This document shows, one piece after another, positions 1,654-45,225 of a stretch of 64,000 nt of DNA. Location of the stretch: assembly GCF_003337435.1 (NCBI RefSeq), contig NZ_QPJS01000001.1, positions 450,513-514,512 on the forward strand, given 5' to 3'. Numbering within the stretch: the stretch's first letter is position 1; each line of letters starts with the position of its first letter. Both the position numbers and the translations under genes were made by a program. The notes beneath the pieces are model-generated. The model was not told where the DNA came from. It ran no database searches and saw only the letters and a list, made by a program, of their open reading frames with translations. This DNA comes from Schleiferia thermophila (lineage in GTDB: Bacteria > Bacteroidota > Bacteroidia > Flavobacteriales > Schleiferiaceae).

Positions 1654-3825
1654 TTACAGGATGATGTCCATCTCGTCGAGCAGGTAGCCGGCTCCGGCGT
1701 AGATGTCGGTAACCCAGAGGATGTAGCGGATGTCGACCATGATGTTTCGGCAGCGGGTGATGTCGTAGTTGATGTCGCTCATGGTGCCTTCCCAGAGGCG
1801 GTCGAAGTTGAGTCCGATGAGGTAGCCGTCGGCGTTGAGGGCGGGGCTGCCGGAGTTGCCGCCGGTGGTGTGGTTGCTGGCGATGAAGCATACGGGCAGG
1901 CGGCCGTCGGAGTCGGCATATCGGCCGAAGTGGCGCTGTTGATAGAGATCGATGAAGCGCTGTGGCAGGTCGAATTCGTAATCGCCGGGGATGTATTTCT
2001 GCAGGACTCCTTCGGCGAAGGTTTGGTGGTGGTAGCGGATGCCGTCGCGTGGCATCATGCCTTCGACCTGGCCGTAGCTGACGCGGAGGGTGCCGTTGGC
2101 GTCGGGGTAGAAACGCCGGTCGGGGAATGTGGCCATGAGGGCGCGCATGTAGTCGGCTTGCAATGTTTGTGCGATGAGGCTGAGGCTATCATAGGGGCGG
2201 TTGATGTGGGTGAGGAAGTGCTGGTACATGTCTTTGGAGAGGGTAAAGAGGGGGTCGCGAGCGAGCTTGCGGAGTGCGGTGGCCCACTGGGCATCGGTGA
2301 GGTTGGGAGCCTGCTGCAGGATGGTGTGGAGGTAAGAGCGGTCGTAGATGCGCTGACGGAAGCGCTGGCGGTCGCGGAGGATGTGTTTTTGGTGGCGGGT
2401 GAGGGCAGGAGCAGGGGCTATTTGCAGGTTGGCGGTCAGGTAGAGATGGAGGAGGCGTTCGAAGGCTTCTCCGTCGGCGTTGGGGTCGAAGTCTTTGGTG
2501 AAGTCGGCAATGGTAGAGAGGATTCGGTCTTTGTTTTGTTTGATTCGGTTGATTCGGGCGGTGTCGGGCAGGTCGATGAGGGGGATGAAGTTGCGGGCGA
2601 AGTTCATCAGTTCGATTCCTTGTATGGCGATTTCGATGTAATAGTCGCGGGCGAGCTGGTAGGGGATGAGGTCGTCGTAAGCTTTTTGGAGGGCCGGGAG
2701 TGTGTGCTCATATTGGCTGAGGAGGTCGGGGTTTTGCCGGAGGCGGTTGGTAAACTCTGTTTCGAAGGTTCGCCTGCGGTCGACGGCGTTGGTTTCGCGG
2801 AGGCCTTGTGATTCGCCGATCCACTTTTTCCAGGCGTTGGCGATGCGGGCGTACTTGGCTGCGTACTGGATCCGAACCTGGTCGCTGGTGCGCATCCGGC
2901 GGTCGAGCAGGGAGAGGAGGGTGTCGCGAATTTGGATTTTGGCGGGGTTGTAGATGTTGGCGATGTTGTGAATTTCGTTGGAGGGCAGGTATTGATTGGT
3001 ACGTCCGGGAAAGCCAAAAATCATGGTAAAGTCGCCGGGTTGTACACCGCCGAGGTATATTTTCAGAAAGTTGCGTGGGGTGAGGGGTTTATTGTTGTCG
3101 GATATGTCGGCGGGTTTATTGTTGTGGTCGGCATATACGCGGAAGAGTGCGAAGTCGCCGGTGTGGCGGGGCCAGACCCAGTTGTCGGTGTCGGCTCCGT
3201 ATTTTCCAATGGAGGAGGGGGGTGCACCTACGAGCCGGATGTCTTTATAGGTTTCGGTGGCAAAAAGGATGTATTGATTGCCGTGGTAGAAGGGTCTGAT
3301 GATGTAGTCATAGCCTTCCTGTGCTTTCTTTTTTCGGATGAGTGTCTGGATGTTTTCCTGGATTTTTTGTTGCTTGTCGGCGGCTGGAAGTTGGTGAGTG
3401 CCGCGGAGGATGTCGTTGGTTACGTCTTCCATGTAGCGGACAAACATGGCGGTGAGGCCCGGGTTTTTGAGTTCTTCGGTTTGGGACATGGCCCAGAAGC
3501 CGTTTTTGAGCAGGTCGCGTTCTACGGTGCTGTGGTATTGGATTTGTCCGTATCCGCAGTGGTGATTGGTAAGGAGGAGTCCTTTTGAGGAGATGATTTC
3601 TCCGGTGCATCCTCCGCCAAACTGTACGATGGCGTCTTTTAGAGAGGCTTGATTGACGGAGTAGATGTCGTGAGCTGAGATGCGCATGCCGAGGGTTTTC
3701 ATTTCGCTTTCGTTGAGCTGGGCAAGGAGCATAGGGAGCCACATGCCTTCGACTGCGCGGGTGGTATGAGCAATGAGCAGGGCCAGAGTGAGGAGTTGGG
3801 TTTTGAGGTTTGCCTTCAGGTTCAT
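1654..3825 (-). CDS. S46 family serine dipeptidyl-peptidase, DPP11 type
   Basis: 723 residues from the ATG at 3825. A TTG nine codons upstream is less likely because the signal peptide (MNLKANLKTQLLTLALLIA) begins at the ATG. The enzyme removes dipeptides from peptide N-termini in the periplasm. Catalytic His is in LLTNHHCGY (88/89), Asp in the DNWVWPRHTGDFALFR block, and Ser658 in TGGNSGSP. At Ser+18 the residue is Arg (FDRLWEG). In characterised S46 enzymes Arg or Ser there marks DPP11 (Asp/Glu at P1) and Gly marks DPP7. The 3' half is clearly more GC-rich than neighbouring genes (67% in 1861-1920). It begins 57 bp after the end of ppc on the same strand, and the palindromic element follows its stop. 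Confidence 0.92.
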   Translation of the reverse strand: MNLKANLKTQLLTLALLIAHTTRAVEGMWLPMLLAQLNESEMKTLGMRISAHDIYSVNQASLKDAIVQFGGGCTGEIISSKGLLLTNHHCGYGQIQYHSTVERDLLKNGFWAMSQTEELKNPGLTAMFVRYMEDVTNDILRGTHQLPAADKQQKIQENIQTLIRKKKAQEGYDYIIRPFYHGNQYILFATETYKDIRLVGAPPSSIGKYGADTDNWVWPRHTGDFALFRVYADHNNKPADISDNNKPLTPRNFLKIYLGGVQPGDFTMIFGFPGRTNQYLPSNEIHNIANIYNPAKIQIRDTLLSLLDRRMRTSDQVRIQYAAKYARIANAWKKWIGESQGLRETNAVDRRRTFETEFTNRLRQNPDLLSQYEHTLPALQKAYDDLIPYQLARDYYIEIAIQGIELMNFARNFIPLIDLPDTARINRIKQNKDRILSTIADFTKDFDPNADGEAFERLLHLYLTANLQIAPAPALTRHQKHILRDRQRFRQRIYDRSYLHTILQQAPNLTDAQWATALRKLARDPLFTLSKDMYQHFLTHINRPYDSLSLIAQTLQADYMRALMATFPDRRFYPDANGTLRVSYGQVEGMMPRDGIRYHHQTFAEGVLQKYIPGDYEFDLPQRFIDLYQQRHFGRYADSDGRLPVCFIASNHTTGGNSGSPALNADGYLIGLNFDRLWEGTMSDINYDITRCRNIMVDIRYILWVTDIYAGAGYLLDEMDIIL

Positions 3826-3882
3826 CGGTTTGGAAGATTTTAGGGTGTGCAATGATAGGAAAGGATGGGGTAATGGGGATGG

Positions 3883-6438
3883 TCAGGCGCTGTTTCGGCC
3901 TGCGTTGATATTGCCAAAGAAGCAGCGTACGATGAGTTTTTTGTAGGCTGGCAGTGTGGGGTCATCGGGTGGTAGGGTTCTGGTTTTATGCAGGGCATAT
4001 TGCTGGATGACGGCCAGTGGCAGAATCATCTCTTCGCGTATGGCTATGGATTTTCGATTGGTGGGGGCTTCCTGAAGCAGTTGAGAGTAACCGGTTATTT
4101 TGAGGAGCATTTCTTTGGTGAGGTCGGCTTCGGCTTTGAGGTCTTGCCAGATGGTTCCGTATGTAGGGTCCTGGGAGAGATGGGCGGTGAGTTTGAAGTT
4201 GGTTTTGGCCAGGGACTGCATGCTATTGAGTACCAGTGCGCGGAAGAATTTTGATTGGTGGAAGGCTGATTTCAGCTGGTCGAGGTATCCCTGGTCAATG
4301 GCATGTTTCAGGGCTGTTCCGAAGCCGTAGTAGCCGGGGACGTTTTGTTTCATTTGTGCCCAGGTGCCGACGAAAGGTATGGCGCGCAGGTCGTCGAGGG
4401 AGAGTTTTTCGGTGCGGCCTCGTTTAGCGGGTCTGGAGCTAATGTTGGTTTCTGCGTAGTAGGGCAAAGGGGTGGCATGAAGTAGATAATCGGTGAATGA
4501 GGGGTGATTTTTCAGGTTGAGATACTTTTGGTAGGCGATTTCGGCCAGTTGTGAGAAGAGTTCTTTGTTGGCGGGTTGGATGGTGGGGATGTTGTTTCGG
4601 AACAGATGCCGTCCGATACCGGCGGTAAGGAGTTGTTCGAGGTTGAAGCGGGCGGCTTGATGGTTTCCAAATTTGCTGGATATGGTTTGGCCTTGAATGG
4701 TGATTTGGATTTCGGAGCAAGCAATATCGGCTCCTTGTGCTGCGTAGTAGAGGTGTGTATCGCCACCTCCGCGAGCGGGGGGACCTCCACGACCGTCAAA
4801 GAAGATGGGCTCGATGCCAAATTGGCGGCAAAGGGATGTAAGGCGGACTTTGGCCTGGTGAATGGCTATATTGGCCATGAGATATCCACCATCCTTGGTG
4901 CCATCGCTAAAGCCGAGCATCACGGTCTGCCGATGGTGATGGGAGGAAATCCAATGGTAGTATTTTGGATTGGAAAATAGTGTTGTAAGGGTATCGACGG
5001 AGTTTTCGAGGTCATTGATGGTTTCAAACAGGGGTATGGGCTTAATATTCAGATAAAAATCGGGTCCGGCAGCTGAGAGGAGAAATTTCAATATTGCAAG
5101 GTCTTCAGCTTTTTGGGTATTGGAGATGATGTAGCGTTCGATGGCTTTTGGCCCGTTTTGAATATTTATCATCTGAATGGCTCTGACCAGGCGGACAGCA
5201 TCGGCCATCTCGGGAGAGAGAAAGAGAAGCTCATCTGAGGTGGGATTGAAAGGGGTGTTCCACCAGAAGTTGATTTTTTCGTCCTCTGTGACGAGGGAAT
5301 CGTAGTGGGTTTTAAGTCCTTTGTATTCCAGGTATTCGAGGGCCCAGGAGCGATGTACGCGGGAGTCCTGCCGGATGTCAAGGGGGGCGAAATGAAAGCC
5401 GAAGGTTTCGATTTGGCGGAGGAGTGTATCTACTTCTTCCCGGTGAATGGAGAGAAAGTCTCTCTCGAGGATTTGAGCGATTTCTTTCAGGTCGGAGGAG
5501 AGCTCCTGTGGGGTGTTGTAGTAGCGGTCGTCGTGACGATAGATGGTGGATTGGACGCGCAGTTCGATTAGTCTGAGTTTCTAGTCAACTCCGGGAAAGG
5601 TGAGCTTGCGTTTCAGAGCTCGGATATCTTTCAGGTAACAGCGCAGGATACTTTCTTTTAGGCGTTTGCAAGTTTCGATGGTGGTATTGGAATTAACGGT
5701 GGGATTTCCGTCGCGATCGCCACCGGGCCAGAAACCTGTCGTGATGAGATGGGGATTAAAAGTGTAATTGGGTACTTTTTCCACGAGAAAGGTGTGGATT
5801 TGAGCGTTTACGTCGTAAAAGATGTTTTCCAGATACCAGATGAGGGAGATGGCTTCTTCCAACGGTGTTGGCTTGCTGCGCCTATACATGGCGGTGAGTC
5901 CGAGCTGGCGCAGCAGCGTGGTGACTTCGGATGGGCTGCCTTTTCGTATGGCTTGCTCCATGTCGGTGATGATGCTCAAGATATGGCCTGGGTAGAATTG
6001 TGTAGGATGTGCCGTAAGGACTACTCGTATGCCAAACCTGCTGAGCTCATGGCCTAGTTGCTCCAGAAGATTTTCGGCTTTGGCTTCCTGGATCAGAAAG
6101 GCCAGTGAGCCTTTTCCCTGGGGGTCGTGGAGTTTTTCAAAGGCAGCGTCTTCTACGGCATCAAAGAGTACGACCTGGCGCTCAATATACTGGACTACGC
6201 GAAAGAGGAAGTCGATTTTGTCGTTTTCGGAAGCGACCGGGTAGTGGTCATGGAAAAAACTGTGGATGATCTCTTCCGGAGATATTTGATTTTCAAGACC
6301 TTCTGAAGATTTTTTGTGCAATATGGGGATGTAGGGGCCTGCTGTTTGGATTCCTTTGTATGGGATGGTGAGAAAAAGACTGTTGTAAAGGTGGTAGGTT
6401 AGGGTGACATGTTTGTCGAAGGGATTGTCAAAATTCAT
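3883..6438 (-). pseudogene. ppc: Phosphoenolpyruvate carboxylase gene split by one in-frame TAG
   Basis: PEP carboxylase makes oxaloacetate from PEP and bicarbonate to refill the TCA cycle. The ATG at 6438 opens a 285-codon frame with the catalytic-His motif VLTAHPTQ (His144) and GFWPGGDRDGNP (235-246). Codon 286 is TAG (5581-5583). The same frame then continues for 565 codons with homologous PEPC sequence, including GFHFAPLDIRQDSR, LGFSDGTKDGGYL, FFDGRGGPPARGGGDT, LRAIPFVGTWAQMKQ and the C-terminus NINAGRNSA. Together this makes about 851 residues, a normal size for this phylum. No frameshift exists and every catalytic motif I know is kept. This is a recent nonsense mutation, a sequence error, or readthrough. 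A -7 box TATTTTTG lies at 6468-6461 on the minus strand. Confidence 0.9.
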
Positions 6439-41951: not shown

Positions 41952-44900
41952 ATGAAAAACAAATATCTTGTAGTTTTTGCATTATTAGGGCTAGTAGTTC
42001 ATGGGCAAATTTTTGCTCCTGAAGGTTTGAACATGCCCGGCAACTGGGATTCGTGGTCTAATCCACCTACAAACAATGCCTTACGTGGAGTACAGGGGGC
42101 ACCTGGAGGAAGAGTGCAAATCAAAACTGGACTGGGAACCAACATTTATCAAACTATTTTCAGTGTAGCTGCCTCTGGAGGAGATTTGGTTGGTGGTCCG
42201 TATCAATGGCTCTTTACCAGCGGACCCACAGGTGAATATTATAAAAATAAATGGGCCGGGGTTAATGTAAGTATGAATACATTTCAAACCTACACGCATA
42301 ATACTTGAGTTGACAATACGGTGCCCCTAACTAACGGAAAATGGTACACTGTAAATTTTCATAATATCGGGTATGTAAATACCAGTGCTATCTTTATGGA
42401 AACCAGCGGTGAGCCGCGAACCATTACATCTGTTACTACTTCCCAACCTCTTACGGATGTTTATCCCGGAAATCTAACCGTAACTATTAATTTGAGTGGA
42501 ACCCCGGCCTCTGACGAATACTATTATTTGCGTTGGACCACAGACAATTTTTTAACTAACAACATTGCTGCTTTTACGATCTTAGGAAGCACTGGCACCG
42601 CTACCATTGCGGTATTACCCAATCAAAACATTGATTTTTACATCTTCAGCTCTTCCATTAGTTCCATTAGTAGTGGAAAAAACAGTTTATTTTATGACTT
42701 ACGAACCATTCATTTTAACAACAATGGAGGATCAAACTACACATGTACAATAAAACCCGCTTACAGAACCGTTTCAACTGCAGGGACCTATAATTTTAAT
42801 ATGGCATCTGCATGGAGAGGAGGCGTCGTACCCCTGGCATCGGCAAGGATAGAAATTGAGCCAGGGGTATCCATTAATGCAAGCTATCAAACCTTGACGC
42901 TGGACTCTATTGAGCTATTAGGCTCGGGAGCATCCTTCGATGCTACAGGCACACAGATCACAATGGTGAACAATGCTGCCTTAATAGTGCCATCCGGAAC
43001 TTCATTTACCTCAGATTTCTCTACATCAATCGAATTTGCCGGCACCGGCAGGATACCAAATGCTCTGACTCTAAATGGCACAATCATCATCAACGATGAA
43101 CTCATTTTATCACCAGGAGTGGTCTTCAACGATGAACTCCAGATAAAAACCGGCGGTTTTGTCAGCTCTAATGCTCCTGTTTGGGGTTCTAACAGCACTT
43201 TGGCATACCATGCAACAACATATACACCCGGCCTTGAATGGAGTCATACCGGATCAGGAACTATAGGTACTACTCCCGGATACCCCAATAATGTAAACGT
43301 TGGAGATGGTTTAAACGCTACTACTGTTAACTTTAATAATCTGGACAGAGCCATGGAGGGTACTTTATTTGTCAACACCTCATCTACCTTCAATTTCAAC
43401 AATACAACCATTGCAGCTGACCTTTTAACAAAGGGATTAAATCTCTGGGGTACGATACACATGAACAACAGCAACAGAAAGATTATATCCATGGGTGATG
43501 TAGTAATCAATAGTGGAGGTGAATTAAATCTTTCATCTGTAATTGGAGGTGATTTAGAGATCAGAAGCGGGGGCATTATTTAGAATTGGAGGACTATTTA
43601 ATCCAAACAACAGGGCTTTAATATTCAAAGACAATTCCAGTGGAGGCATCAGTGGTTTCGGAATTTTTCAATTGCCATATTTGATCGTAGATAATTCACA
43701 TGTTATAACATATACGGACGTACTAATAGAAGAGACGGGATTTATCCAATTAATTAATTCTTCTACATTATTTACTGTAAATTCACCAGTCACCTTACGA
43801 GCTAACGCTACAAATTATGCAAAACTATTGGTGTGTGGAAGTTGTACTCTTTCAGGCTCATCAAACATAGTAAAGGAAACGTACTTCGCTGCCGGCGCAG
43901 CCAATACCAACATGGCATCACCTGATTTTAACGATGGCAAAAACGGCCGATGGTACTCCATAGGAATGCCCATGCCCGGTGTAGCGATGAATTCATTTGA
44001 CGGTGGAAGTCCGGCGTTTTTCTCTTCTGCGACACCTGGGCCGATTGCCCGATGGGATGCCAATACCGGTAATTATGTGTATCCGACCAATCTTCTGACA
44101 GACAATTTTATAGCCGGTCAGGGCTATGTAATCTATATGGGAGAAAACCAACACGGTATCATTACCCGTGACCTTTCGACCCAGAATTTAATAAGCTTGA
44201 CCATGGATGTGGCGAACCCTTCCGCTACTATTTCTTTAGGGTATACAAACTCTCCATTGTTGACAAACATTTTTGGATCCAATACCGACGGCTGGAATCT
44301 AGTGGTGAATCCATGTTTAGCCCCGCTCAATCTGCAAGGCACCAGCACTGTAAACGCCGATGCAACGGCCTATATTTACAATCCTACCACCGGTAATTTC
44401 ACCACGTTTAATTTTTCGGATCCTTCTCCGTTTTTTATTGCTCCGTTACAGGCCTTCTGGGTGAGAGCCACCACCACAGGAGGTAGCATCAGCGTGTTGC
44501 CTGCCAACCAATCCACCTCAGCAAATCCGGCTCAGGCCAAGCCACAGATTCAAATGGAACACGCCTGGCTGAAATTGGTACGACAAGACGGCAGTGAAGA
44601 CCTTCTCAAAATTTATTTCCGTCAGGAAGCTACTGATGGCTACGAAAATACTTACGATAGCGAGAAACTAACCGGCGACCCGACCCGAATAGGTCTTTTT
44701 TCTACTGCAAGCGGTAAACCTACTGCTGTCGATAGTCGCTCGCCCGTTACCGGTCACAAGCAAATACCGGTGTATGTGTATTGTGGAAGTTTCTCTGTTT
44801 TAACTATTTCAATCGAGTCATTGAATCTGCCAAGTGGTTACAAAGCATGGCTCGAAGATCACATTACCAACCAAATGGTGGAAATCGAAAACGGACCTTA

Positions 44901-45225
44901 TACTTTCTATCAATCCTTCATAGGAAATCATCACAGATTCACACTCCATATAGCTGAAAGTATGATTGGGGTAAATGAACAGGTTAAATCCTACGATAGT
45001 CAGGTATGGACCTCGGGCACAAACCTGCACATATTGCTCAGCGCTACTACCAATTCCGGAGACTTCAGCCTCTTTGACATGTCTGGTAAATGTATTTACA
45101 CTAAAAAATTTGAAGGCATTGCTGGTCAACATCTGACATTTGATCTGAGTCATCTGCGTAGCGGTGTGTATGTTGTGCGTACACGTATCAACGGATTAGA
45201 AAAATCAATTAAATTCATTCGATAA
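41952..45225 (+). pseudogene. Large secreted T9SS cargo protein gene with a nonsense codon and a frameshift
   Basis: About 1090 codons. It starts with a signal peptide (MKNKYLVVFALLGLVVHG) and ends with a type A T9SS sorting domain (FSLFDMSGKCIYTKKFEG, then LRSGVYVVRTRI). Between lie Thr/Ser/Asn-rich beta-repeat segments, as in surface adhesins. The frame is broken twice. An in-frame TGA at 42306-42308 sits in YTHNT*VDNTVP, where TGG (Trp) would restore it. Within the five G at 43569-43573 the frame shifts; removing one G gives IRSGALFRIGGLFNPNN and joins the rest. All parts share style and composition, so it was one gene. It is either decayed or contains sequence errors. Function is not recognisable. 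Confidence 0.82.

Follow-up and report, generated by a model that had tools for sequence, protein, structure and literature searches.

A full-length Bacteroidota PEP carboxylase (PEPC) gene, ppc, cut by one in-frame TAG, occupies positions 3883-6438 of the minus strand of the window, i.e. the 64,000 nucleotides of DNA from the hot-spring-type bacterium Schleiferia thermophila (family Schleiferiaceae) that we analysed (contig NZ_QPJS01000001.1, positions 450,513 to 514,512). We propose that this TAG is probably a very recent nonsense (amber, null) allele of the single ppc gene. The features on which this proposal rests are as follows:

3883-6438, minus strand: ppc (PEP carboxylase), 851 codons interrupted once by TAG (frame reading, Pfam PEPcase, NCBIfam PEPC).
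5581-5583, minus strand: in-frame TAG, codon 286 of ppc (sequence reading).
5581-6438, minus strand: 5' part of ppc, 285 codons plus the TAG, the expected product of ordinary translation.
3883-5580, minus strand: 3' part of ppc, codons 287-851, with most of the catalytic motifs and no further stop.
5206-5208, minus strand: codon 411 of ppc, the first in-frame ATG, GTG or TTG after the TAG.

The position of the TAG, and the fact that a single frame runs on both of its sides, had been given in a preliminary description of this DNA and were confirmed by direct reading: the cta found at 5581-5583 on the plus strand is TAG on the minus strand, and 3883-6438 read on the latter strand with the TAG as X gives 851 residues, with X at residue 286 and no other stop. 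The accompanying claim that the sequence 3' of the TAG keeps its motifs and is free of further stops was borne out as well (one stop in 851 codons). Conserved PEPC motifs were found both 5' and 3' of the TAG, and their clade-invariant residues are retained on either side. The protein matches the Pfam PEPcase family (PF00311, E 7e-140), and its two parts match the NCBIfam PEPC model in successive ranges (93-287, then 345-872). Its score lies under the NF000584 equivalog cut-off, thereby pointing to a divergent Bacteroidota clade of PEPC. The gene is single copy: the search covered the entire genome, 2.6 Mb in 23 contigs and 99.8% complete, and no second ppc is present there.

The nearest ortholog, the ppc gene of Thermaurantimonas aggregans (NZ_BHZE01000002.1, loci L002 and L022), is identical to the window ppc at 631 of 852 positions (74%), and resembles it in its length, its gapless alignment and its C-terminus. 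Its frame is uninterrupted and, unlike the window ppc with its TAG, it has an open codon 286. The alignment of relatives at this codon, which had been suggested as a check, displayed a variable residue (12 residue types in 40 aligned relatives) and no stop in any of the fully aligned relatives, the frames of which are all uninterrupted; loci L008 and L011 were left out of the aligned set, and the search lists both of their frames as open. In this alignment, codon 286 reads as a freely varying position, neither catalytic nor special. In the literature searched, no disrupted ppc is described for this group.

As regards the age of the lesion, synonymous divergence between the window ppc and the Thermaurantimonas ortholog is near or beyond saturation, thereby making dN/dS against this sole close ortholog unusable, and a rate comparison and a count of conserved columns were used in its place. 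Columns were counted as constrained when their conservation reached 95% or more among 39 relatives and Thermaurantimonas also retained the residue. None of the 93 such columns located after the TAG was changed, while one of the 51 located before it was changed, conservatively. If the 3' part is unselected, the absence of changes sets an upper limit (95%) of about 0.015 neutral substitutions per site on the age of the stop. In a vote over all outgroups, the changes assigned to the window ppc and to the Thermaurantimonas ortholog were 24:26 before the TAG and 71:69 after it, i.e. the rate is not raised in the window ppc on either side. An apparently faster window lineage after the TAG, obtained with single outgroups (e.g. 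40:19), was gone in the all-outgroup vote. From the intact constrained columns and the unraised rate, it follows that the stop is extremely young, or is an error, or that the protein is still made; the absence of decay fits a base-call error or continued protein production equally well.

The window together with 360 kb of flanking stretches (424 kb) was surveyed for in-frame stops only. The 287 stops ending coding-like frames comprise 142 TAA, 106 TGA and 39 TAG, in agreement with the earlier claim that TAG is a normal stop elsewhere in this DNA. Among all these stops, the ppc TAG has the highest coding score 3' of the stop and lies by far the farthest from a start codon (124 codons versus at most 37 elsewhere). 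The ppc interruption exceeds chance. When read by eye, the 18 other candidates were ordinary gene ends, after which came either a further gene or no recognizable one, with the exception of a T9SS-type surface gene; the own end of ppc was also flagged by the stop scan. The only strongly coding stop-interrupted frames in the 424 kb are ppc and this T9SS-type gene. The latter (41952-45225, plus strand) codes for a surface protein whose start resembles a signal peptide and which bears a T9SS C-terminal sorting domain (PF18962). It is broken twice, by an in-frame TGA at 42306-42308 and, next to five consecutive G, by a frameshift near 43575-43583.

From these findings, a very recent nonsense allele is most likely the most economical reading of the ppc TAG. 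Like a young pseudogene, ppc carries one disabling lesion in an otherwise undecayed sequence, and its sister-genus ortholog is uninterrupted. Provided that the cells truly carry this base change, translation would end after residue 285, where RF1 would free the peptide. This product is presumably inactive, and active PEPC would thus be absent beyond background leakage. A comparable allele occurs in the rpoS gene of some E. coli K-12 strains, which harbors an amber codon at position 33 (PMC2700278). Similarly to the case of ppc, a single TAG lies in an otherwise intact conserved gene, but the rpoS allele varies between strains of one species, whereas the present analysis of ppc covered one strain. 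Furthermore, supE44, a tRNA that suppresses amber codons, is present in some K-12 cloning strains (PMC11148124), whereas no suppressor was found in the window's genome. Counting against the null-allele reading, PEPC has been reported, along with PEPCK, in Schleiferia thermophila strain Yellowstone, where both are recorded by presence (PMC4148732). That genome measures 2.62 Mb and has 37 tRNAs, versus 2.60 Mb and 36 tRNAs for the window's genome, and it is a different assembly (35 contigs versus 23).

It had been argued that the loss of PEPC should cost the cell. This argument is weakened in that a PEPC of this type is without a match in 24 of the 40 genomes searched, and in that the window's genome possesses both a glyoxylate shunt, whose genes for malate synthase and isocitrate lyase lie side by side (aceB-aceA) in open frames, and a GTP-type PEPCK (608 aa, open frame; locus L158, G000:C1:48383-49438 and flanks). 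This GTP-type PEPCK, which occurs in the window's genome only among the 40 genomes searched, was possibly gained by horizontal transfer. Judging from known pathway chemistry, the TCA cycle could be refilled by the glyoxylate shunt, and maybe also by the GTP-PEPCK operating in reverse, which is how the cell would tolerate the loss of PEPC. Part of the argument nevertheless stands. ATP-PEPCK, present in 36 of the 40 genomes searched, full-length pyruvate carboxylase, present in 8 of the 40, and malic enzyme were not found in the window's genome, so the loss of PEPC should not be free. In a genome of the same family (G001, whose contig C2 matches Thermaurantimonas aggregans), no ATP-PEPCK, GTP-PEPCK or malic enzyme was found that would supply PEP to gluconeogenesis.

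The preliminary description offered four options, of which the recent mutation is retained, sequence error is retained as less likely, and readthrough and two separately translated halves are disfavored. A sequence or assembly error, which would mean that the cells have a sense codon at this place and an intact ppc, is in our opinion unlikely. It would account for the lack of decay 3' of the TAG and sits well with a site that tolerates many residues, and the in-frame TGA and the frameshift by the run of G in the T9SS-type gene make base-call faults possible in this draft. However, just two stop-interrupted genes were found in 424 kb, the window lies within a 1.19 Mb contig of an assembly that is 99.8% complete, and lone substitution errors are rare in modern short-read consensus sequences.

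If the TAG were read through, whether by leakage or by programming, some full-length PEPC would be made and the 3' part of the gene would stay under selection. This reading agrees with the undecayed 3' half, with a tolerant site at which nearly any inserted residue would be acceptable, and with the fact that, besides the GTP-PEPCK, no other complete carboxylating anaplerotic enzyme was found. Yet we consider it improbable, for the following reasons. First, RF1 is present, with prfA above the cut-off. Second, the search for a suppressor tRNA, also suggested at the outset, found the anticodon CTA in none of the 36 tRNA genes above the Rfam cut-off, an unassembled or unusual tRNA being still possible. 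Third, the sole PylS match was weak and under the cut-off, as in most control genomes, and a pyrrolysine system was rejected on this ground. Fourth, a recoding RNA structure was not found, the sequence following the TAG having no more stable a fold than its shuffled versions (z = 0.09). Fifth, the ppc TAG is an isolated case in the 424 kb, where TAG is an ordinary stop, and no aligned relative has a stop at position 286. General recoding of TAG was likewise rejected, from the presence of RF1, the lack of a CTA tRNA and the use of TAG to end 39 of the 287 coding-like frames; the ppc TAG leaves the genetic code untouched. A more particular version appears still more doubtful: a leaky TAG at this tolerant position would act as a throttle on anaplerosis, allowing low and adjustable production of full-length PEPC in a cell whose RF1 is standard and which lacks a suppressor tRNA.

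The least probable option, a split gene whose halves would be translated separately and then assemble into an active enzyme, finds in its favor the conservation of the two halves and the frame that they share, but it is very unlikely and was rejected, because the second half lacks a start codon (no in-frame ATG, GTG or TTG for 124 codons, codons 287-410), a product started at codon 411 would be devoid of the conserved LDIRQDS region (353-359), and no split occurs in the fully aligned relatives.

Returning to the very recent nonsense allele, if it is real, a carbon-fixing, anaplerotic enzyme would have been caught at the moment of its loss, in a genome endowed with a GTP-type PEPCK where relatives usually have the ATP-type enzyme, and the annotation "PEPC present" may be wrong for such genomes. 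The ppc TAG could also exert polarity on the gene at 1654-3852, about 30 bases downstream of ppc, which we take to encode an S46-like peptidase.

With respect to the protein itself, residue 548 of ppc is an Asp, in the motif FDGRGG, at the place where plant PEPC has a His (FHGRGG). This Asp is invariant in the 40 relatives, i.e. in the whole Bacteroidota PEPC clade.
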